A DNA stretch of 64,000 nucleotides from Nautilia sp. PV-1 (GTDB lineage Bacteria > Campylobacterota > Campylobacteria > Campylobacterales > Nautiliaceae). The DNA is taken from the NCBI RefSeq assembly GCF_004006315.1, contig NZ_CP026530.1, forward strand, positions 501,618 through 565,617. Reading direction: 5' to 3'. The notes beneath the pieces were generated by a model, which saw only the letters and a program-made list of their open reading frames with translations, searched no databases and had not been told where the DNA came from. The position numbers and the translations under genes were made by a program. How positions within the stretch are numbered: position 1 is the stretch's first letter; each line of letters opens with the position of its first letter. This document shows, one piece after another, positions 18,346 through 43,416 of this stretch.

Positions 18346-18993
18346 ATGAAGATACTTTTGGTAGAAGATGACGAATTTATCGGAGAGAGTATAAAAGACT
18401 ATTTAGAACTTCAAAATAACAGGGTCGATTATTACAGTTCGCCTTTAAAAGCGCTTGAAGAAGTTTATCCGAGTCATTATGATATATACTTATTAGATAT
18501 AAATATGCCGGAAATGAACGGATATGAGTTTTATAATGAATTAAAAAGATACGCTAGCGATGTTCCTGTTATTTTTATTACAGCTTATTCCGATATGGAC
18601 CACGTAGAAAAAGCTTTCGAGTTAGGAGCAGCGGATTATATAAAAAAGCCTTTTGAACTTAAGGAGCTTGAACTTAGAATAAAAAGACTTGTGTTTAAGA
18701 AAACAAGTGAAGTTAAAATTACAGATGATTATAATTTTGACATTAAAAATTTAAAACTTTTTTATAAAGGTGAAGAAGTTGAACTTACTCCGAACGAAAA
18801 ATATTTTTTAGAAATTTTAGTTAAAAATATCGGTCAGGTCGTTGACATGGAAACACTTAAAGATTACATCTGGGAAGAAAAAAGCGTATGTGACAATACA
18901 TTGAGGACACAGGTCAAAAAATTAAGAGCGAAACTTAAAGAAAATTTCATTAAAAACGTAAGAGGAAGCGGGTATAAAATTGAGAAACAGTGA
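18346..18993 (+). CDS. OmpR-family response regulator
   Basis: An N-terminal receiver (residues 1-118) with acidic pair D8/D9 (VEDDEF), phospho-acceptor Asp in YLLDINMPEMNG and Lys in IKKPFE. A C-terminal winged-helix DNA-binding domain follows (LTPNEKYFLEILV to VRGSGYKI). It overlaps its cognate kinase by 14 bases. It is divergent from napA and lies upstream of a tetraheme cytochrome gene, so control of nitrate respiration or cytochromes is a reasonable guess but not shown. Confidence 0.9.
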   Translation: MKILLVEDDEFIGESIKDYLELQNNRVDYYSSPLKALEEVYPSHYDIYLLDINMPEMNGYEFYNELKRYASDVPVIFITAYSDMDHVEKAFELGAADYIKKPFELKELELRIKRLVFKKTSEVKITDDYNFDIKNLKLFYKGEEVELTPNEKYFLEILVKNIGQVVDMETLKDYIWEEKSVCDNTLRTQVKKLRAKLKENFIKNVRGSGYKIEKQ

Positions 18994-20596
18994 TGATTTT
19001 AAATTTGATATAACGGTTGCGTTTGTAATTTTTGCTTTTTTAATTGTTGTTTCGCTAACATATATAAGTATATTTTTCTTTAATAAAATTTCCACTCAGG
19101 AATTTCAGGAAAAAGTTAAAATTTCCGCAGACAATATAGTACAGATTTATAAAACTAAAGAAGATCTTATAAGAAAAAGTACGCTTGCAATTGCAAACAG
19201 TGAACTTTTTTCTAACAATTTTAATATAAATCCGGAAATCATCTCTTCAATATTTAAAATATTTTTATCCGCAAACAGAGACTTTCTTAAAATAAAATAT
19301 GTAAATCAATACGGTAAAACAATTGTGTACTGTAAAAAAATTGATAAAGAAATAATATGCGGGGAAAATGATAAAAACAATTTTATTTTCAGAGATTTTA
19401 AACTTCAGACTTCTCTTTTTACAAAAGAAATAATGACGGATGAAGGTTTGAAATTCGAAACAATTTCTCCGATAAAAAAAGATCCAAAAAAAGGGTTTAT
19501 TTTATTAGAATCCACGTTAAAGAGGCTGTTTTCAGGATCAAATAATTTTTATAATTTGTTGCTTATAGACAATAACGGCAATATTTACTACAGCAATTTT
19601 CTAAAGGCCAAAAGTATATTTGATCTGTTTACCTATACACTTGCGGACAGAATAAAAAAGGCGGCAGATAAGTTTGTAACGGACGATATTTACGTCGTTC
19701 CCCTTAATAAAAAATTTAAACTCGTATTTATACAGAACAAAAAGCTGATTAACAAGACAAATGCTGTTTCTCAAAAACTTGCGATGATTATGATTTTGAT
19801 TTCTATATTTTTGGCTATTCCTTTAGGTGTGTTTTTCTCAAAACCACTTTATAATTTTTATAAAGATCTTGATAAACGCGTTAAAGACGAAATAGAAAAA
19901 ACCAAAGAAAAAGAGCAGATACTTATGCATCAGAGTAAATTAGCCGCATTAGGGGAAATGCTTGGAAATATAGCACATCAGTGGAGACATCCGCTGACAA
20001 GGCTGTCACTGCTTATTCAAAATATAGAAATGGCTTATAAAATGAATAAATTAGATGATGAAAGGTTTGAAAAATTTAAAAATAACGCATTAAGCCAGAT
20101 TGAATATATGTCGCAGACTATTGACGATTTTACTAATTTCTTCAAAAAAGACACCAAGAAAGAAACCTTCTGTCCTAAAGAAATAATTGATAAAGCATTA
20201 CAGCTGATGGAAGCAAGAATAAAACAAAACAAGCTTGAAATAATATACGACGTCAAAAACACTACGCCGATAGAAGGTTATAAAAGCGAATTTTCCCAAG
20301 TTATATTAAATATTATAAACAATGCGATAGACATACTTAAAGAAAGAAATATAGAAAATAAAAAAATATGGATAAGAATCAACGGTAAAACTATAGAAAT
20401 AGAAGACAATGCGGGAGGCATTCCTGATGAAATTAAAGATAAAATATTCGAACCTTATTTTACGACAAAATTTCAGTCTCAGGGTACAGGAATAGGGCTT
20501 TATATGAGCAGGGTTATTATTACTCAGCATTTTGACGGAGAACTGTATGCCTATAATTCTTCTAACGGAGCCGTGTTTGTTATTAAATTTAAATAA
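18980..20596 (+). CDS. Sensor histidine kinase with periplasmic sensor domain
   Basis: Two membrane segments (residues about 13-33 and 263-290) flank a ~225-residue periplasmic domain that looks like a double Cache domain. The phosphorylated His is in GNIAHQWRHPL, and the ATPase domain has N-box VILNIINNAIDIL, G1 IEDNAGGIPDE and G2 GTGIGLYM. The form GNIAHQWRHPL is common among Campylobacterota kinases. The ligand is unknown. Confidence 0.9.
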   Translation: MRNSDDFKFDITVAFVIFAFLIVVSLTYISIFFFNKISTQEFQEKVKISADNIVQIYKTKEDLIRKSTLAIANSELFSNNFNINPEIISSIFKIFLSANRDFLKIKYVNQYGKTIVYCKKIDKEIICGENDKNNFIFRDFKLQTSLFTKEIMTDEGLKFETISPIKKDPKKGFILLESTLKRLFSGSNNFYNLLLIDNNGNIYYSNFLKAKSIFDLFTYTLADRIKKAADKFVTDDIYVVPLNKKFKLVFIQNKKLINKTNAVSQKLAMIMILISIFLAIPLGVFFSKPLYNFYKDLDKRVKDEIEKTKEKEQILMHQSKLAALGEMLGNIAHQWRHPLTRLSLLIQNIEMAYKMNKLDDERFEKFKNNALSQIEYMSQTIDDFTNFFKKDTKKETFCPKEIIDKALQLMEARIKQNKLEIIYDVKNTTPIEGYKSEFSQVILNIINNAIDILKERNIENKKIWIRINGKTIEIEDNAGGIPDEIKDKIFEPYFTTKFQSQGTGIGLYMSRVIITQHFDGELYAYNSSNGAVFVIKFK

Positions 20597-20695
20597 TGTA
20601 GTATTTGTGTAATACACTTAAAAATGAACGATTATTTAGCACTCTTTTAGCACTTTACTTATTTATAATTCCTTTAAAAATTGAAAAGGTGAAGA

Positions 20696-30727: not shown

Positions 30728-30863
30728 TTTTCTTCTTTTTCTTTTATTAATAACTTACATTTTTCTTACATCTGTCTGATAAGATTAACTTATAATTAAT
30801 TGTTTTTTATGCTTTTATGTTAGACTAATGTTACGAATAAATATTCATATAAAAGGATTATTA

Positions 30864-32396
30864 ATGTCTCAAATTAAATTAGATCCAATTACGAGAATAG
30901 AGGGACATTTAAAAGTAGAAGTAAATGTAAACAACGGTAAAGTCACGGATGCCAAATGCAGTGCCGACATGTATCGGGGTATTGAAAAAGCATTAAAAGG
31001 ATATGATTATTTAACCGCTATTCACATAACTCAAAGAACATGCGGATGCTGTCCTTACGCTCATGCGGAAGCAGCGGCTTTAGCAATAGAAAACGCACTC
31101 AAAATAGAGTTAAACAAAAACGGAAAGCTTTTAAGAAACATGGTAATCGGAGCTTACAAACTAAAAGACTATCTTTTGCATTTTTATACATTGAGTCTGC
31201 TTGATTTTATGGATATTAAGGCGATTTTGGATTATGAAGGCAACGACAGTGATTTGCTTGAACTCAAAAGATGGGTTTTAAAAGAAATTTCATCTAACAA
31301 AGTGTTTCCATCTCCTCTTTTTTTACAGAGATTCAAAGCCAATTATATAACACTCAAAGAGTTAAATATAGTTTTAATTAAACATTATTTGGAAAGTTTT
31401 GAGATAATGAAAAAAATAGACACGATGGTGAAAATTTTCGGTTCCAAATCTCCGCATATGGTTTCTATAGAAGCAGGGGGAGTCACCACTATGCCTACCG
31501 CGGACAGGTTAATAAAATATATCGATCTGGCGAAAGAAACCAGTGTGTTTATACAAGAGAAATATTTAAATGATGTGATAGAAGTGGCAAAACAGTATAA
31601 AGAATATTTTAAAATAGGTAAAGGACCGGATAATTTTCTTACTTTTAACACTCTTTTAAATTTAGACGGTTCGTATGAATTTGTTCAGGGAATCAGCACG
31701 GATTATAAGCTGAATGAAAACATAGACCCTTACAATATTGTAGAGTATAACGGATTCGCCTATTACAAAGAAAGCGGAGGTTACAAGCCTCTGGAGCTTA
31801 CCCAGCTGACACCTATCACTCTTGAGGAATTTAAACATGAAACAAAAAAATATTCCTGGTCAAGAGCTCCGAGATTTGAAGGACGTGTAGTCGAAGTTGG
31901 ACCTTCGGCCATTATAATTAATACTTATTTAAGCGGCAAAAATAAAAAATTAAATTCATTGGTGGATAAAATCAACGCTGAACTGGGAATTACACTCCAG
32001 GATTATAATTCGGTGATGGGAAGGCACCTGGCAAGAGCTATTATTTCACAGCTGATAATGGATAAAATTTTCAACGATGCTTTAAATGTTGATGAGGGGG
32101 TTTTAGGATTTATTCAGCTTCCGGAAATACCTAACAATGTTAAGGGTATAGGGCTTACTGAAGCCACAAGGGGAGCGCTTGCGCATTTTATAGAAATAGG
32201 TGAAAACGGTTTTATTAAAAATTATGAAATGATAGTGCCTACTACATGGAACATTTCACCAAAAGACAACAGCGGTATCCACGGCGCCCTAGAACAGATG
32301 CTAATAGGCACTGAAATAAAAGATGAAAAAAATCCTATAGAAATAGCCAGAATAGTTAGAAGTATCGATCCTTGTCTGGCTTGTGCCGTGCATTAA
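30864..32396 (+). CDS. [NiFe] hydrogenase large subunit, sensor-like, no C-terminal extension
   Basis: The Ni-Fe site cysteines are C60 and C63 in QRTCGCCPYAH and C504 and C507 in DPCLACAVH. The variable residue inside the first motif is itself a Cys (C62), where V or I is usual. The protein stops exactly at the final His (H510), so there is no peptide for a HydD/HyaD-type protease to remove. Large subunits of H2-sensing (HupV/HoxC) and some energy-converting hydrogenases share this feature. I start at ATG 30864 with AAAGGA upstream; the in-frame ATG at 30828 has none. Unusually, the large subunit gene precedes the small one. Confidence 0.9.
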   Translation: MSQIKLDPITRIEGHLKVEVNVNNGKVTDAKCSADMYRGIEKALKGYDYLTAIHITQRTCGCCPYAHAEAAALAIENALKIELNKNGKLLRNMVIGAYKLKDYLLHFYTLSLLDFMDIKAILDYEGNDSDLLELKRWVLKEISSNKVFPSPLFLQRFKANYITLKELNIVLIKHYLESFEIMKKIDTMVKIFGSKSPHMVSIEAGGVTTMPTADRLIKYIDLAKETSVFIQEKYLNDVIEVAKQYKEYFKIGKGPDNFLTFNTLLNLDGSYEFVQGISTDYKLNENIDPYNIVEYNGFAYYKESGGYKPLELTQLTPITLEEFKHETKKYSWSRAPRFEGRVVEVGPSAIIINTYLSGKNKKLNSLVDKINAELGITLQDYNSVMGRHLARAIISQLIMDKIFNDALNVDEGVLGFIQLPEIPNNVKGIGLTEATRGALAHFIEIGENGFIKNYEMIVPTTWNISPKDNSGIHGALEQMLIGTEIKDEKNPIEIARIVRSIDPCLACAVH

Positions 32397-32414
32397 ACTC
32401 TAAGGAGAAAAATA

Positions 32415-33341
32415 ATGATGAACAGAAGAGAATTTTTAAAAGCAGTGCATAAAGCTCTTATTGCTGCCGGAGGTGCAGGGTTTTTCAGTATGGAAGAATT
32501 AGAAGCTCTAGAAATAGGAGATATTAAAAAACCGGATATTATTTGGCTGCAGGCAATGAGCTGTGACGGATGCTCCACTTCGTTTTTAAACGCCGATATC
32601 TCTATACTTGATATATTAACGTCGTTTACAAATGTTATTTTTCATCCCACTTTAATGGCCGCAACAGGTGAAATGGCTACGGATATTATTGAAAAATATA
32701 AAAGTGACAACCTGATTCTTGTTGTTGAAGGTGCGATTCCGACTCAGCTTCCGCATGCATGCTTGATGGGGGACAGGTTTATAAACGACTGGATTGCAAA
32801 TACCGCCAAAAAAGCAAAAGCAGCTATTTCGGCAGGAACATGTGCGACTTTTGCGGGTATATGTGATATGAAGGGAATGATGACCGGTGCCGGCAGTCTG
32901 AGATATTTCTTAGAACAGGAAAATATATCAACTCCTGTAGTCAATCTGCCTACATGTCCTATGAAACCTAATCATTTTCTTTATACACTGTTTTTTTATA
33001 TTAAACATAATACTCTGCCTCCTATGGACGATTCGAACAGACCTCTCAGATTTTTTGGAGAAACGATTCATGACAGATGCGTATACTATTATGACTATCA
33101 GGAAAAGAATTTTGCAGAAAAAATTGGAGACAGAGGATGTCTTTTTAAATTAGGATGTCAGGGACCTGTAACAAAAAACGACTGTGTAAGAAGTTCAAAT
33201 ACATATGATAAATATAACTGCATTAAATCTGGGCATCCTTGTGTAGGATGTGCCAGTGAAAATTTTCCTAGGACCATTATGTTCAAAAGAAGCGACGATA
33301 AAAGAGAAATAAAAAAATATAAAACGTTTAAAAGGATATAA
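32415..33341 (+). CDS. [NiFe] hydrogenase small subunit, partner of the sensor-like large subunit
   Basis: Carries the proximal-cluster motif SCDGCSTSF, later GTCATFAG and LPTCPMKP, then the distal and medial cluster ligands [16 protein letters not shown] and [12 protein letters not shown]. The N-terminus [10 protein letters not shown] looks like a twin-arginine motif, but the following segment is only weakly hydrophobic and shows no AxA cleavage site. It may therefore be exported without cleavage, or be a relic. The length is 308. It lies 18 bases after the large subunit with AAGGAG ahead, and 2 bases before the chemoreceptor gene. Confidence 0.88.
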
Positions 33342-36365: not shown

Positions 36366-36486
36366 AGCAATCCTTTAAATATTTATCTGAAAATGTAATA
36401 TTAGCAACCTTTTTTATAATAAAAAGTTATCTAAAAACGACTTATTTATGAAATTATATTATAATAATAGAAAAAAAGGCGTAAAA

Positions 36487-37068
36487 GTGAGTAAAGAAGA
36501 AAAAAAAGAACTGATAATGAAAACTGCTCTTAATCTTTTTGCCAAGCAAGGTTTTTACAATACTACAATCGCTGATATAGCGAAAGAAATGGGAATGAGT
36601 GTTGGAAATATGTACAATTATTTTCCTTCTAAAGAGTCTTTAGCCAAGGAACTGCTGATTTATACTTCTAAAAAATTCGGAGATGAAATCAGAAAAATAA
36701 ACGAAATGGATATAAGCAGCAAAGAAAAAATAAGACATATTGTCGAACTCTATTTTAATATGGCTTTAAACGCGCCGGAATTAGTGGATTATTTTATGAG
36801 AGTTTACCTGTCCAATAAAGAAATATTTGCAAACGGATGTGAGGGAATGCTCTGCGTATCTGCTTTTGTAACGGAAATTATGATATTTTTTGAAGAAGGT
36901 GTAAGAAAAAAAGAGCTTAAAAACCAGGATTTTTTTGCGGCGTTCGGTCTTTTTATGGGATATGTGGGAGGACTGGCGTTTTTAAATAAAGAAGGTATTC
37001 TTTCTAAACCTCTGTTGGAATATGTAGAACCTGTAAGCGAGAATATATACAATGCGCTCAAAGCTTAA
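36487..37068 (+). CDS. TetR/AcrR-family transcription regulator linked to H2-sensing hydrogenase
   Basis: The N-terminal helix-turn-helix is clear: LIMKTALNLFAKQGFYNTTIADIAKEMGMSVGNMYNYF, given here only as the region at residues about 8-46. The C-terminal ligand domain has a CEGMLC pair. I choose GTG 36487, which has AAAAAAGG upstream; the in-frame ATG at 36448 precedes an AT-rich TATAAT-containing stretch that looks like the promoter. The gene overlaps the following hydrogenase small subunit by 17 bases, so regulator and hydrogenase are made together. Confidence 0.85.
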   Translation: MSKEEKKELIMKTALNLFAKQGFYNTTIADIAKEMGMSVGNMYNYFPSKESLAKELLIYTSKKFGDEIRKINEMDISSKEKIRHIVELYFNMALNAPELVDYFMRVYLSNKEIFANGCEGMLCVSAFVTEIMIFFEEGVRKKELKNQDFFAAFGLFMGYVGGLAFLNKEGILSKPLLEYVEPVSENIYNALKA

Positions 37069-37915
37069 AGTTATATGGATTGATGCGGTAACATGTTACG
37101 GCTGTACCCATTCGTTTCTTAATTACAAAGAGATTTCTTCTCTTTTTGATAAAATCGATTTTAAATATCATCCTATATTTCTGTCCGAAGAATTTGAAAT
37201 TCAATCTTGCGATCTGCTTATTGTCGAAGGAGCTTTGAAGTTAAATTATCCTAGGCTTGGATTTTCATTAAATGAATTGATTTCAAAGCTCTTTTTTAAA
37301 GCAAAAAAAGTTTTGGCTTTGGGTACATGTGCGGTTTACGGAGGTATATACGGCGAAGGGCTGATGTTTAACAGGGAAAACAGGGGACATTATCATAAAT
37401 GCAGGGATAAAATTATAAATCTTCCGGGCTGTCCTCCTCATCCGGACTGGATAGCGTTTGTAATGGACATGGTAAGCGAAGACAAAAAAATAGAACTGGA
37501 TGAATTAAACAGGCCTAAAGATATTTTTGCTTATACATCACATATGGGATGTACCAGAAACGAATATTTCGAATGGAAAATTGATGCCGAGGAATTTGGT
37601 ACCAAAGAAGGGTGTCTGTTTTATTTTCAAGGCTGCCAGGGTCCGTTTACGCATAGCAGCTGTAATAAAGTGCTGTGGAATGAGGTGAGTTCCAAACCGA
37701 GAGCCGGGACTCCTTGTTTTGGATGTACTGAAGCCAATTTCCCTAAAAACGAACTGTTTAAAACAGATACCTTTATGGGAATTCCGGCAAATATTCCTTT
37801 AGGTGTCAGCAAAAGGGCGTATCTGACGTTAAGCGGAATAGCAAAAAGTTTGAATAACGAAAGACTCAGCTGCAAACTCATTAATTATAAATGCGGGGAT
37901 AAAAATGAAAATTAA
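37052..37915 (+). CDS. HupU/HoxB-like small subunit of an H2-sensing hydrogenase
   Basis: There is no signal peptide: the first cluster motif TCYGCTHSF starts at about residue 14, so the protein stays in the cytoplasm, as regulatory hydrogenases do. Other ligands are GTCAVYGG, LPGCPPHPD, SHMGCTRNEYF, GCLFYFQGCQGP and TPCFGCTEANFP. The 287-residue length fits HupU. It overlaps the TetR gene upstream and the large subunit downstream (11 bases). Confidence 0.88.
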   Translation: MRSKLKVIWIDAVTCYGCTHSFLNYKEISSLFDKIDFKYHPIFLSEEFEIQSCDLLIVEGALKLNYPRLGFSLNELISKLFFKAKKVLALGTCAVYGGIYGEGLMFNRENRGHYHKCRDKIINLPGCPPHPDWIAFVMDMVSEDKKIELDELNRPKDIFAYTSHMGCTRNEYFEWKIDAEEFGTKEGCLFYFQGCQGPFTHSSCNKVLWNEVSSKPRAGTPCFGCTEANFPKNELFKTDTFMGIPANIPLGVSKRAYLTLSGIAKSLNNERLSCKLINYKCGDKNEN

Positions 37916-39068
37916 TAAAAAGATCATAAATAAAATAGAAGGAGAAGCTACTTTAAAAATCCACGGTGATAAAGAAGTAGAGTTTGTAGAAATAGAATTT
38001 TGGCAGTATCACGGTATTGAAGACTATTTGAAAAACAGGCATTTTATGGACGCTCTTGTAATCAATCCCAGAGTATGCGGTATTTGCGGCCATTCTCATT
38101 TATATGCTACAGTAAAGGCTATTGAAAAAGTCTTTAAAGCGAAAATTTCTCAAAAAGCCCAGATTTTTAGAGAAATAACAACTCTTTTGGAAATTGTCGA
38201 AAATCATATCAAATGGTTTTATATTACTATATTTCCGACTCAGGTAAAAGATAAAAGCTATATTTTCAAAGCTGTAAAATTTTCCTCTAAGATATCTAAA
38301 GCAATTGCAATGCTTGCCGGACAGTTTCCTCATAATTCTTATATGATTCCTGGGGGAGTCACATGCGATCCGACTTATATGGAAATTATGAGACTTAAAG
38401 ATTTAATTAAAGAAATCCTTGATGAGTATAAAAATGAAATAATGGATGAAGAAGTTTATTCTAAAGATTTGGAGCTTTTTTTTGAAAACCTCCCTAAAAA
38501 TATAGGTAAAAGTTTAAACAGATTTTTGGTTTTAGGTGAATCGGCAGTTTTTAAAAGTAACGGGGATTATGAGTTTGTTACGGAAGAAAAAAACAGATCT
38601 TTAAGCAAAAACGCTTTATATAAGAATGAATTTTATGAAGTGGGACCACTGGCAAGAGCCATTGTGAACGGAAATGAAAATATAAAAAAAATTTATGAAC
38701 AGTTAGGTGATTCCATCTATACAAGAATGGCCGCAAGGGTATATGAGCCATTAATTCTTTTAGAATATATTATGGAAAAGATTGATAAAATAGATTTATG
38801 CGAGCCGTCTTTTATCAAACCGGAAATAAAAAACGGAACTGCAAAAGTTGCCGTTGAAGCTCCAAGAGGAAGCTTAATCCATGAAATATCAATAAAAAAT
38901 GAAAAAATCGAAAACTATAATATTATAGTTCCTACGCAGTTTAACCTTGCATCTTCTTCTAAAGAAAATCCTGCAGCCGCACAGGCGGCGTTAATGAATG
39001 AAAACAGCGAATATGTTGATTCAATATTCAGATGTTTTGACATTTGTGCCGTTTGTATGTCCCATTGA
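37905..39068 (+). CDS. HupV/HoxC-like large subunit of an H2-sensing hydrogenase, no C-terminal extension
   Basis: The active-site cysteines are C58 and C61 in RVCGICGHSH and C381 and C384 in DICAVCMSH. The chain ends at H387, exactly where maturation proteases cut ordinary large subunits. At 387 residues it is much shorter than the usual 450-580, mainly through trimmed internal loops, yet all four cysteines are kept. No HupT-type kinase is adjacent; the partner seems to be the co-transcribed TetR regulator. An alternative is a group 2d-like cytoplasmic uptake enzyme. Confidence 0.85.
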   Translation: MKINKKIINKIEGEATLKIHGDKEVEFVEIEFWQYHGIEDYLKNRHFMDALVINPRVCGICGHSHLYATVKAIEKVFKAKISQKAQIFREITTLLEIVENHIKWFYITIFPTQVKDKSYIFKAVKFSSKISKAIAMLAGQFPHNSYMIPGGVTCDPTYMEIMRLKDLIKEILDEYKNEIMDEEVYSKDLELFFENLPKNIGKSLNRFLVLGESAVFKSNGDYEFVTEEKNRSLSKNALYKNEFYEVGPLARAIVNGNENIKKIYEQLGDSIYTRMAARVYEPLILLEYIMEKIDKIDLCEPSFIKPEIKNGTAKVAVEAPRGSLIHEISIKNEKIENYNIIVPTQFNLASSSKENPAAAQAALMNENSEYVDSIFRCFDICAVCMSH

Positions 39069-39089: not shown

Positions 39090-39126
39090 TTGAAAAATGA
39101 ATGTTTATTTATGTATAATAAACATT
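39090..39126 (+). promoter_or_regulatory. hydABC promoter with an overlapping dyad
   Basis: TTGAAA (39090-39095) and TATAAT (39114-39119) are 18 bases apart. A perfect inverted repeat AATGTTTAT (39100-39108) / ATAAACATT (39118-39126) covers the spacer and the end of the -10 box, a typical place for a repressor operator. A strong CGGAGG lies upstream of the hydA start. Confidence 0.65.
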
Positions 39127-39152: not shown

Positions 39153-40286
39153 ATGAATGAAGCAACTTTACAAAGAGTAAAAGAGAGATTAGAAGCTCTC
39201 AAAAAACTTCCGGGAATCGGAGAAAAAAGCGTTTCTAAAATGCTTGAAGAGAGCGGATTTACAAGAAGGGATTTTCTAAAATGGTCTGCAGCAATGGCTG
39301 CAATGTTAAGCCTTCCTACATCATTTACTCCATTAATTGCCGAAGCGGCAGAAGTAAGTGACAGACTTCCGGTAATCTGGCTAAACCTAGCAGAATGTAC
39401 TGGATGTAGTGAAAGTTTAATCAGAAGCGATGCTCCTACAATTGATAATTTGATATTTAACTATATCAATCTTCAATATCATGAAACTATTATGGCAGCA
39501 GCCGGATGGCAAGCTGAAGAAAACTTAAAAGAAGGTATGTCTAAATTTAAAGGAAGATACATCTTATGTGTAGAAGGTGGTGTTCCTACAAATATGGACG
39601 GTGAATTTTTAACAATCGGACCATTCGCTGAAACAGGTCTTGAATTAGTTAGAAAAGCGGCAAATGACGCTGCAGCTGTTATTTCAGTTGGTACTTGTTC
39701 AAGCTTTGGTGGTATCCAAGCGGCAGCTCCAAACCCAACTGGTGCAAAAGGTGTATATCAAGTAATTAACAAGCCTGTTATTAACGTACCTGGATGTCCT
39801 CCAAGTGCTAAAAATATCGTAGGTACAATTTTATATGTAATTTTATTCGGACAGTTACCTGCAGTTGACAACTTCAACAGACCTAAATTCGCATACGGAC
39901 TTAGAATTCACGATTTATGTGAAAGAAGAGGGCATTTCGATGCAGGTGAGTTTGTTCAAGAATTTGGAGACAAAGGCGCACAAGACGGATTCTGTTTATA
40001 TAAAGTAGGATGTAAAGGTCCTTATACGTTTAACAACTGTTCAAGAGAAAGATTTAACCAGCATACATCTTGGCCTGTACAGGCAGGACACGGTTGTATA
40101 GGTTGTAGTGAACCAGATTTCTGGGATTCTATGGCTCCATACGAAGAACCTCTTGCAAATAAAAAATATGATTCGCCTTTAGCTGACGCAACAGCAGATA
40201 AATACGGCGTAACAATTTTAACAGTAGCTGGTGTAGCAATTGCAGCACATGCGGCACTTAGCGCAATTAAAAATCCTAAGGAGTAA
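39153..40286 (+). CDS. hydA: Uptake [NiFe] hydrogenase small subunit HydA (group 1)
   Basis: A Tat signal, TRRDFLKWSAAMAAML, lies at residues 36-52, behind an N-terminal extension that resembles a helix-hairpin-helix (ALKKLPGIGEKSVSKM). Cluster ligands follow: ECTGCSESL, GTCSSFGG, VPGCPPSAKN, HDLCERR, CLYKVGCKGP and HGCIGCSEPDFWD. A C-terminal hydrophobic helix (TILTVAGVAIAAHAAL) anchors the enzyme at the periplasmic face of the membrane. The codon usage shifts to preferred codons (for example AAAACA, GGTGTA), suggesting high expression. Confidence 0.95.
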   Translation: MNEATLQRVKERLEALKKLPGIGEKSVSKMLEESGFTRRDFLKWSAAMAAMLSLPTSFTPLIAEAAEVSDRLPVIWLNLAECTGCSESLIRSDAPTIDNLIFNYINLQYHETIMAAAGWQAEENLKEGMSKFKGRYILCVEGGVPTNMDGEFLTIGPFAETGLELVRKAANDAAAVISVGTCSSFGGIQAAAPNPTGAKGVYQVINKPVINVPGCPPSAKNIVGTILYVILFGQLPAVDNFNRPKFAYGLRIHDLCERRGHFDAGEFVQEFGDKGAQDGFCLYKVGCKGPYTFNNCSRERFNQHTSWPVQAGHGCIGCSEPDFWDSMAPYEEPLANKKYDSPLADATADKYGVTILTVAGVAIAAHAALSAIKNPKE

Positions 40287-40289
40287 TAA

Positions 40290-42029
40290 ATGGCAAAAAG
40301 AGTAGTAATTGACCCGATAACTAGAATTGAAGGTCACTTGAGAGTTGAAGTAGTTATTGATGAAAATAATAAAATTACAAACGCTTTCTCAAGTGCGACA
40401 CTTTGGAGAGGTATCGAAGTTATTCTAAAAGGTAGAGATCCTAGAGACGCAGGATTTATGACACAAAGAATCTGTGGGGTATGTACATATTCTCACTACA
40501 AAGCTGGTATTACAGCTGTTGAAGACGCATTAGGAATTAAACCTCCTCTAAATGCATTATTAACTAGAACATTAATGGATTTTGCACTATTCTTCCATGA
40601 TCATATCGTTCACTTTTATCAATTACATGCACTTGACTGGGTTGATATTATCAGCGCACTTAAAGCTGATCCTAAAAAAGCCAGCGAAGAAGCATTCAAA
40701 TATGTTCCTAAAGGTTATGAGCCTATCGCAACAGGTGAAGATCATTTAAGAGAAGTACAAAAAAGAGTTTCTAAATTTGCTGAGAAAGGTGACTTAGGTC
40801 CGTTCAAAAACGGATACTGGGGACATAAAACAATGAGATTTACACCTGAGCAAAACCTAATTGCTCTTAGCCATTACTTAAAAACACTTGAAATGCAAAG
40901 AATTGCAGCTCAAATGATGGCTATTTTCGGTGGTAAAAACCCACATCCGCAAAGTCTTACTGTTGGTGGTGTTACTTGTATTATGGACCTTAAAGACCCA
41001 GCAAGACTTGGTGAATATCTAACTAAATTTAAAGAACTTGCTGATTACGTAAACAGAGCTTATTATGCTGATATCGTAATGGCTGCCGCTGCTTACGGAA
41101 ATGAGCCAAGCGTAGTTCAGAAAAATAATTTAGGAAATTACCTAACATACAAAACAATGCAGACTGGACCAAACTCATGGTTATTCGATGCATGCGGTTA
41201 TATTAAAGATTTCGATTTAGGTAAATTCTATCAAATCGATGAAAGCAAAATTACTGAAGAAGCGACACACTCTTGGTATAAAAACCTTGATAATCCTACT
41301 CATCCATACGATGAAACAACTGAGCCTGAATATACAGGTTATGTTGAAGGTGAAAGTGTTGACGGACAAGGAAACCTTGTTAAAACTAAAGTAGTTAACG
41401 AAAAAGGTAAATATTCTTGGATTAAATCACCAAGATATAACGAAGAACCAATGGAAGTTGGACCTCTAGCATGTATGGTAGTTAACTATGCTGCCGGAAA
41501 CAAAAAAGTACAGAAAGTTGTTAATGAGTTCTTAGCTCAGACAGGTCTTCCTGCAGAAGCGTTGTTTACTGTACTTGGAAGAACAGCAGCTAGAATGCTT
41601 CAAACTAAAACAATTGCAGATTACGGTCTAGAAGCATTTAACAACCTTGTAGAAAACCTTAAAAAAGACGATTCAACAGTAGCTCCTTATGTTATTGATG
41701 AAACTAAAGAATATAAAGGTAGATACATCGGTGACGTTCCAAGAGGTATGTTATCTCACTGGTGTAGAATTAAAAACGGAAAAATCGAAAACTGGCAGGC
41801 TGTAGTTCCTTCAACTTGGAATGCAGGTCCAGAAGACGGTAGAGGTAAAAAAGGTGCTTATGAAGCTAACCTTATCGGTATGACTTTAGCAGATCCGGCT
41901 AGACCTCTAGAAGTTATTAGAAGTATCCATTCATATGACCCATGTATTGCTTGTGCGGTTCACGTAATGGACGTTAAAGGTAAAAAATTAGGTGAGTTTA
42001 AAGTAGATCCGCTATACGGCGCATGTTAA
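40290..42029 (+). CDS. hydB: Uptake [NiFe] hydrogenase large subunit HydB
   Basis: Catalyses H2 oxidation. Ligands are C62 and C65 in RICGVCTYSH and the C-terminal DPCIACAVH. After that His there is an 18-residue extension (VMDVKGKKLGEFKVDPLY...) to be removed by the HydD protease. The length of 579 is normal. This contrasts with the two extension-less large subunits encoded upstream. Confidence 0.97.
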   Translation: MAKRVVIDPITRIEGHLRVEVVIDENNKITNAFSSATLWRGIEVILKGRDPRDAGFMTQRICGVCTYSHYKAGITAVEDALGIKPPLNALLTRTLMDFALFFHDHIVHFYQLHALDWVDIISALKADPKKASEEAFKYVPKGYEPIATGEDHLREVQKRVSKFAEKGDLGPFKNGYWGHKTMRFTPEQNLIALSHYLKTLEMQRIAAQMMAIFGGKNPHPQSLTVGGVTCIMDLKDPARLGEYLTKFKELADYVNRAYYADIVMAAAAYGNEPSVVQKNNLGNYLTYKTMQTGPNSWLFDACGYIKDFDLGKFYQIDESKITEEATHSWYKNLDNPTHPYDETTEPEYTGYVEGESVDGQGNLVKTKVVNEKGKYSWIKSPRYNEEPMEVGPLACMVVNYAAGNKKVQKVVNEFLAQTGLPAEALFTVLGRTAARMLQTKTIADYGLEAFNNLVENLKKDDSTVAPYVIDETKEYKGRYIGDVPRGMLSHWCRIKNGKIENWQAVVPSTWNAGPEDGRGKKGAYEANLIGMTLADPARPLEVIRSIHSYDPCIACAVHVMDVKGKKLGEFKVDPLYGAC

Positions 42030-42039
42030 GGAGTTAACA

Positions 42040-42732
42040 ATGAAATTTTTAAAACCTATGGGAGAATATCTCGGCGGAATAGAATTTTCTGCCGGATATA
42101 GATGGCAACACTGGATAAGAGCAATTTCAATTTTTGCTCTTATAGCAACAGGATTGTACATTGCTAATCCTTTTATTACATATGCCAACGTCTCATCTGA
42201 ACCAACTAGATTTATTCAGGCTTATATCAGAGAATGGCATATTATTTTTGGATTTGCAATGATAGGTGCAGTTCTTTACAAAACATTTTTCTTCTTCTTT
42301 TTCAGAGAAGGAAAATACGAAAGAGCTTCACTAAAAGATGCGTTTAATATTAAAGTGGCTCTCCAGCAAATCGGATATTATTTATTAGTAGCTAAACACC
42401 CTCATACTAAAGGTGTTTACAATCCGTTACAGTTCTGGGCATATACAATGCTGTATGTGTTCTTTTACGGAATTATGATTACTGGACTTGCTCTTTATGC
42501 CGAAGTTTATCATAACGGTTTAGGTGCGGCATTATATCCGTTCGCTAAATCTGTTGAAACATTCTTTGGCGGTCTTGCATATGTCAGAATCTGGCATCAC
42601 ATTTTTATGTGGGCTATTATCGTAGTAGTGTTCATCCATATCTATATGGCTGTTTATAATGCAGCTTTCGGTAAAAACGGCGGTATGGATGCGATTTTCT
42701 CAGGAATGAAATGGGAAAAAGAAGACCATTAA
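42040..42732 (+). CDS. hydC: HydC, cytochrome b subunit of the uptake hydrogenase
   Basis: A diheme cytochrome b that passes electrons from HydAB to menaquinone. Four membrane helices are visible, with candidate heme ligands H25 (RWQHWIRAI), H64 (REWHIIFGF) and the WHHIFMW and HIYMAVYNA histidines near the end. The length of 230 is usual for this family. Confidence 0.94.
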   Translation: MKFLKPMGEYLGGIEFSAGYRWQHWIRAISIFALIATGLYIANPFITYANVSSEPTRFIQAYIREWHIIFGFAMIGAVLYKTFFFFFFREGKYERASLKDAFNIKVALQQIGYYLLVAKHPHTKGVYNPLQFWAYTMLYVFFYGIMITGLALYAEVYHNGLGAALYPFAKSVETFFGGLAYVRIWHHIFMWAIIVVVFIHIYMAVYNAAFGKNGGMDAIFSGMKWEKEDH

Positions 42733-42837: not shown

Positions 42838-43416
42838 ATGAAAATATTAGTACTTGGTATAGGTAATATACTGTTTGGAGATGAAGGTATAGGTGTTCAT
42901 TTAGCGAATTTTATTGATGAAAAGTATGAATTTAAAGGCCCACATCAGGTTGACATAATCGACGGAGGAACGCTAGCTCAAAGGTTGATTCCTATTATTA
43001 CAGAATACGACAAAGTATTTGTGTTTGACTGTGTTGATGTTGATGAAGCAAATATAGGAGATGTTTATTTCTTTGATTTCAGGGAAGTTCCGGAATGTGT
43101 AAGCTGGCAGGGGAGTGCCCATGAGGTTGAAATGCTGCAGACGCTTCAAATGATAGAAATGATGGGAGATCTGCCTGAGACTAAAATAATAGGCGTTGTT
43201 CCTTTTGTGATAGGCGAAGATACGACTTTTTCTATTACGCCTGAAGTACAAAAAGCGGCTGAACTTATGGAAAAGATTTTAATTACTGAACTTAAAAAGC
43301 TGGGAGTGGAGCCTAAAGTTAAAAATGAAAATGTTACTTTAACCCAGATAGCAAAAGAATCATACAGAAGAGGAGTTCCGGAAGAGTCATTAAAAGGTTT
43401 AGAAATACATAATTAA
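42838..43416 (+). CDS. hydD: HydD, hydrogenase maturation endopeptidase (HyaD/HybD family)
   Basis: Cuts the C-terminal extension of HydB after nickel insertion. The family signatures GIGNILFGDEGIGVHL (with the Ni-binding Glu/Asp), DIIDGGTLAQRLI and the HEVEMLQTLQM His region are present. The length of 192 is normal. Only HydB in this window has an extension to be cut. Confidence 0.94.
   Translation: MKILVLGIGNILFGDEGIGVHLANFIDEKYEFKGPHQVDIIDGGTLAQRLIPIITEYDKVFVFDCVDVDEANIGDVYFFDFREVPECVSWQGSAHEVEMLQTLQMIEMMGDLPETKIIGVVPFVIGEDTTFSITPEVQKAAELMEKILITELKKLGVEPKVKNENVTLTQIAKESYRRGVPEESLKGLEIHN

Follow-up and report, generated by a model that had tools for sequence, protein, structure and literature searches.

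A TetR-type regulator paired with a HupUV-like hydrogenase in Campylobacteria, and its predicted operator in the hydA promoter: a candidate route for H2 sensing

The 'group 2' hydrogenase of Campylobacterota has been called by turns a sensor, an uptake enzyme and a ferredoxin-linked enzyme, and the literature searched, in the parts accessible to us, names no signalling partner for it. The question of what that partner might be is raised by a locus of Nautilia sp. PV-1, whose genome consists of a single contig of 1.79 Mb. The stretch of DNA that we analysed, referred to as the window, comprises 64,000 nucleotides (positions 501,618 to 565,617 of NZ_CP026530.1, assembly GCF_004006315.1), and its + strand carries, in this order, tetR, the genes for the small and large subunits of a [NiFe] hydrogenase, hydA, hydB, hydC, hydD, hydE, and hypF. 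The tetR frame (36487 to 37068; 193 aa; Pfam TetR_N, E=4.3e-16) starts with GTG, a further ATG being present upstream at 36448, and encodes an invariant C118-x4-C123 pair. It is followed by the frames for the HupU-like small subunit (37052 to 37915; Oxidored_q6, NiFe_hyd_SSU_C) and the HupV-like large subunit (37905 to 39068; NiFeSe_Hases, E=3e-41), the former without a signal peptide and the latter without a C-terminal extension, ending ...DICAVCMSH. Downstream lie hydA, for a Tat-exported uptake hydrogenase small subunit (39153 to 40286; TIGR00391, 506.9 bits; TAT_signal), hydB, for the large subunit (40290 to 42029; NiFeSe_Hases, 9e-204), hydC, for a cytochrome b-like membrane subunit named from gene order (42040 to 42732; position, length and conservation in neighbourhoods), and hydD, for a maturation protease of the HyaD/HybD family (42838 to 43416; TIGR00140 above the cut-off). 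The gene calls agree with the preliminary description in the lack of a signal peptide on the pair, in a large subunit that stops with the terminal His, in the 17-nt overlap of the TetR and small-subunit frames, and in the place of the pair directly upstream of the hyd genes. A second hydrogenase is encoded in the window at 30828 to 33341; its large subunit gene precedes the small one, the best NCBIfam matches are of the NiFeSe type, and the small subunit has an RR-like N-terminus.

The preliminary description had also noted that no kinase partner lies nearby, and this held for the whole window genome, where a search with C. necator HoxJ found no HupT/HoxJ-like kinase and gave generic histidine-kinase ATPase-domain matches only (best E=5e-14, HoxJ residues 330 to 440). 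The corresponding search for a HoxA orthologue in the window genome likewise returned generic matches only, the best being a 372-aa frame matching mainly in the sigma-54 activator domain, as expected of any NtrC-type protein. About 16 kb upstream there is a two-component kinase/regulator pair (18346 to 20596), the input region of which barely resembles HoxJ.

As a cytoplasmic [NiFe] pair without a signal peptide, with a large subunit lacking a C-terminal extension and with an apparent tie to the regulation of an uptake hydrogenase, the enzyme resembles the sensors of the HupUV-HupT-HupR and HoxBC-HoxJ-HoxA systems; it differs from them in that a one-component TetR protein replaces kinase and NtrC-type regulator, and in its separate clade. 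The Ni-ligand cysteines 58, 61, 381 and 384 of the HupV-like subunit were invariant in 41 aligned sequences, and the cluster ligands of the HupU-like protein were mostly conserved; outside Nautiliaceae the first cluster motif usually reads CNGN, as in group 2a enzymes, whereas it is CYGC in the window. All HupV homologues (49/49) ended right after the CxxCxx motif, without a protease-cleaved tail, the final residue being His in 41/49 and Lys or Gln in 8/49 (L084, L088 and others). The HupU-like subunit gave no TAT_signal match, unlike HydA. In the tree the Campylobacteria enzymes formed a clade (100/100) apart from HoxC, Azospirillum HupV, group 2a and group 1, and identity to HoxC and HoxB was 24% for the large and 32% for the small subunit. 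The name HupUV in the preliminary description is therefore not borne out by the tree, in which the enzyme does not group with true HupUV/HoxBC, and 'HupUV' is used here as a functional nickname. At the gas-channel positions of HoxC, the Ile of CGIC was invariant and the Phe position was occupied by Thr, Ser, Val or Ile; the gas-channel Ile is also present in group 2a enzymes. The enzyme may work like HupUV. The epsilonproteobacterial HupSL/HupUV ('group 2') is the same enzyme as the window pair, namely Hyd-4 in Nautilia PV-1 (PMC10092268) and GAmH_0548-0549 in N. profundicola (Campbell 2009, PMC2628731), and the accessible parts of both papers label it H2-sensing without naming a partner. A Sulfurimonas review (PMC4584964), in the part available, sets out conflicting proposals, among them that of H2 sensing by the group 2 HupSL/HupUV, for which it cites Nakagawa 2007; in the available text of a further study (mBio 2023, PMC10470523), hupUV and hydBA are mapped as neighbours in Sulfurovum as well as in Sulfurimonas.

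Over 397 Campylobacteria genomes TetR (115/397; E<=1e-20) and HupV (113/397; large-subunit search, E<=1e-25) occurred together in 112, TetR alone in 3, HupV alone in 1 and neither in 281, cross-genome counts that, like the Fisher values, ignore shared ancestry. TetR alone was found in G147, in G426 and, as a fragment, in G106; in the single genome with HupV alone the contig ends at that point. Because hydB was found in 362/397 genomes, TetR tracks the HupUV-like enzyme and not the uptake hydrogenase. When both were present, TetR preceded HupV by 500 to 1600 nt, in the same orientation, in 109/112 genomes, two of the remaining three having a spacing of about 1660 nt and one being split over contigs. 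The TetR and HupU frames overlapped or abutted (-56 to +5 nt) in 41/44 fetched loci, which suggests translational coupling. At least eight genera (g10, g13, g20, g24, g34, g55, g56, g61) mix TetR-bearing and TetR-less members, so that joint gain or loss must have occurred more than once. Identity of TetR across families is about 60%, above that of HupU and of HupV. The gene order, for which the preliminary description had looked to Nautiliales, is kept in the sister genome (G048) and reaches beyond that order, to 112/397 genomes of the class; a Nautiliales-specific arrangement is thereby ruled out. Throughout the class the gas-sensor-like hydrogenase is almost always accompanied by TetR, and many of the host bacteria come from habitats that are sulfidic or at deep-sea vents. 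A phylum-wide search for the module gave, among the matches listed, only genomes of the same order, a scan of genome contigs gave two group-1-like hydrogenases, and a plasmid search gave two Campylobacterota copies. Bacteroidota offer an independent case of TetR and hydrogenase genes as neighbours: on the Runella plasmid pRUNSL01 (L167:2072-3756) a group 2a-like hydrogenase is preceded by two TetR/AcrR genes.

The conserved predicted operator in the hydA promoter is the palindrome TGAATGANTATTCATT. A de novo motif search with randomised starts, run on a non-redundant set of 36 regions upstream of hydA from outside Nautiliaceae (of 51 regions, 14 from Nautiliaceae and the near-duplicate L074 were omitted; L101 hydA was excluded by hand, its locus having been fetched for a paralogue), yielded TGAATGATTATTCATT, with an information content of 14.7 bits versus 8.5 to 9.0 in six shuffled sets. 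When scored with a leave-one-out PWM, 34/36 of these regions exceeded the shuffled 99th percentile, as did 13/14 Nautiliaceae regions, which had been held out of the PWM, and 1/20 control regions hand-picked from TetR-less genomes with listed hydB coordinates. The lone positive control, L116, belongs to the same genus as TetR-bearing genomes, and its site is possibly a remnant. In the window the predicted operator occupies 39094 to 39113 on no particular strand (core TGAATGTTTATTTA, 39098 to 39111; de novo motif and PWM) and scored 14.6 against a shuffled 99th percentile of 12.4. The full PWM, whose training set includes most of the hydA regions outside Nautiliaceae that it then scores, found sites upstream of hydA in 49/50 regions, TetR in 9/47, HupU in 1/46, HupV in 0/49 and HypF in 0/31. 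Genome-wide, the exact 16-mer with two free positions was present in 71/116 TetR/HupV-bearing genomes versus 3/281 others. When 2 mismatches were allowed, scanning with a pattern specific to Nautiliaceae returned mostly noise.

The placement of the site was examined relative to promoter elements. In Nautiliaceae it fills the spacer between the -35 box TTGAAA (39090 to 39095, + strand, in the window; aligned in Nautiliaceae promoters) and the -10 box TATAAT (39114 to 39119, + strand, 18 bp from the -35 box; conserved in Nautiliaceae promoters), and outside Nautiliaceae it lies mostly a few bases past a -10-like box, in the -10/+1 region as judged by eye; both positions fit a repressor. In the f20 group, presumably Sulfurospirillum-like, the genus being our guess, the site is further up, 58 to 97 nt before the hydA frame. 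Outside Nautiliaceae the module precedes two types of hydA, 6 closer and 25 more distant, all with the box; TetR and its site thus accompany different hydrogenases. The dyad at 39100 to 39126, which the preliminary description had put forward for TetR binding, does exist and overlaps the conserved core, and its arms match at 10/10 positions in the window; it is private to the window genome, only 7/10 positions being complementary in the sister genome (L054), and as an operator it is ruled out for want of that conservation.

Away from the main locus we inspected 20 sites, hand-picked from 42 left over. Five of these precede hydA copies (L136, L137, L138, L140, L149) and four precede a NicO-like nickel transporter gene followed by hypB, hypC and hypD (L141, L143, L152, L153), where the genes were named by Pfam in L141, the NicO-like score falling just below the cut-off, and by sequence likeness in the others. 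The remaining sites stand before genes that are unrelated or unknown, and some are probably chance occurrences. No fatty-acid gene was recognised beside the inspected sites. Sites before hydA copies and before NicO-like/hypBCD operons fit a regulator of hydrogenase genes, not one of efflux. Operator-like sites were also seen before NapC/NirT-type cytochrome genes, a weak one in the window (20621 to 20640, score 12.8), where the cytochrome c gene was recognised by eye, and an exact match in G136 (L147:2519-2536; Pfam). In both Nautilia genomes a TTGAGAATGAATTAATATTCA site is kept (L187:1501-1521, L186:1501-1521), with a short ORF and a gene of outer-membrane-like type behind it.

The TetR protein itself has a TetR_N domain, a normal TetR fold in an AlphaFold2 monomer model (pLDDT 89), and a palindromic predicted operator, known from sequence only, that overlaps its target promoter. 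The nearest PDB entries were of general TetR and FadR type. C118 and C123 were kept in 46/46 orthologues, within RVYLSNxExFxxGCEGMxCV, and lie in a loop before helix 7 where the model is least certain (pLDDT about 65). Conservation of region 100 to 170 was 0.82 to 0.83, versus 0.84 for the recognition helix region, which in our judgement is unusual for a TetR ligand domain. Among eight paralogue rows a similar Cys pair appeared in two (2/8), which represent one gene fetched twice (L086/L105, beside hydE). Two tandem TetR paralogues follow hydE in G023 (L105:891-2088). Two others (L101:9041-9625 and L104:9071-9652), 45% and 39% identical, have a single Cys in place of the pair and adjoin or diverge from another hydrogenase-like cluster (HupU-like, 27 to 28%; large-subunit-like, 23 to 24%). 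The fold is that of FadR-like TetR repressors, and the B. subtilis FadR box is palindromic, of the TGAATGA..TCATT type, resembling the Campylobacteria operator; unlike the FadR-like repressors, the Campylobacteria protein has an invariant C-x4-C, and its predicted targets are hydrogenase, nickel and hyp genes. NemR is a TetR protein with redox-active Cys, and a Cys in the ligand domain is a possible switch; common to both is the ligand-domain Cys, the difference here being a Cys pair with a hydrogenase as putative reductant.

We propose a model, to which we assign a probability of roughly 0.6, in which the HupUV-like enzyme, when activated by H2, lifts the repression that TetR exerts on hydABC and on maturation genes. 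The gene pairing, the predicted operator and regulon, and the Cys pair are the parts of it supported by sequence. TetR, very probably a regulator of hydABC and as such probably a repressor, would bind TGAATGANTATTCATT over the -10/+1 region or, in Nautiliaceae, between -35 and -10, and would repress hydABC and, in several lineages, nickel uptake and hypBCD too. The co-translated cytoplasmic HupUV-like hydrogenase, which we think likely to be the input of TetR, would serve as its dedicated signal source; once reduced by H2 it would act directly on TetR, the likeliest mechanism being contact with passage of electrons to C118/C123, TetR would then release the operator, and hydABC would be expressed. 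We infer repression, H2 as the signal, HupUV-TetR contact, and electron transfer together with its sign. Electron transfer to the Cys pair is put forward tentatively, and with the same hesitation we suggest that a [NiFe] hydrogenase might be the reductase of a repressor, H2 electrons passing via the FeS chain of the HupUV-like enzyme to the TetR Cys pair in a one-step, class-wide H2 switch that needs neither kinase nor response regulator. The direct route from hydrogenase to repressor suggested in the preliminary description thus gains from the kinase-less module and the predicted TetR operator on the hydA promoter, and loses in that the enzyme falls outside the HupUV/HoxBC clade.

An unlikely alternative, though one with several points in its favour, is that TetR is an ordinary ligand-sensing repressor of all hydrogenase genes, responding to acyl-CoA, a metal or the redox state, and that the HupUV-like enzyme is catalytic and merely co-transcribed, being linked to ferredoxin in the way proposed for hydrogenase III of Aquifex. 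The fold and the operator resemble those of FadR-type TetR proteins, and the enzyme lacks none of the Ni-ligand Cys or of the cluster ligands of the small subunit. Catalytic roles for it have been proposed in the accessible parts of Campbell 2009 (PMC2628731) and Kruse 2017 (PMC5357620). Moreover, G147 and G426, which have lost HupV, retain an intact TetR with its Cys pair and the operator; these two cases also speak against our model, as TetR may work there without HupV, or the loss of HupV may be recent. In G147 a Pyr_redox_2 flavoprotein gene lies between tetR and hydA (L095:9894-11267), and in G096 an operator precedes a gene for a flavoprotein resembling it (L151:2587-3972). A merely co-transcribed catalytic enzyme, however, sits poorly with TetR tracking HupV and not hydB over the 397 genomes, with an operator usually missing before tetR-hupUV, with a Cys pair invariant in this TetR orthologue group only, and with the reported absence of uptake activity from the S. 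denitrificans soluble fraction (PMC4584964, in the part available).

According to the accessible text of Kruse 2017 (PMC5357620), the gene of a TetR-like repressor immediately precedes hupSL in S. multivorans and its product might repress hupSL, and a missing sensor is blamed for the absent H2 response of that species. If TetR repressed its own hupSL/hupUV operon, hydA regulation would be secondary; we consider this very unlikely. Besides the adjacency of tetR and hup there are operator-like sites before tetR in 9/47 regions, clearest in L090 and L113, but 6/9 of these matches fall in codons of a hypA start (MHEYSI), the hydA site was found in 49/50 regions, and sites precede hydA copies remote from tetR. 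Given how few sites lie on the tetR side, we reject autoregulation as its main role. About as improbable is a scheme in which the HupUV signal goes to a distant kinase and TetR has nothing to do with H2. The window genome has several histidine kinases, but outside the ATPase domain their resemblance to HoxJ does not go beyond weak scores, HoxA finds no better than a generic NtrC-type match, and the TetR-HupU frame coupling is conserved.

The main evidence against the proposed H2-activated relief of TetR repression is that hydABC of S. multivorans is reported to be constitutive, with hup transcripts mostly undetected (Kruse 2017, PMC5357620, in the accessible parts), which sits awkwardly with strong switching by H2 in this species. 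Accessible parts of a further study report HupSL to be absent from Sulfurospirillum proteomes and H2 to be produced by Sulfurospirillum spp. during pyruvate fermentation (PMC6242987); in our reading, pyruvate-fermenting cultures that make H2 may therefore not test the absence of H2. The adjacency of TetR and hupSL was already known in one species (2017), and the class-wide pairing and predicted hydA operator go further. No signalling route from a hydrogenase to a TetR protein is described in the accessible parts of the literature searched (open-access full text). With a TetR partner across the class and a defined predicted operator, the question of H2 sensing by this enzyme becomes testable; if the model is true, a one-component route would join a field of H2 sensing so far built on HupT/HoxJ kinases.
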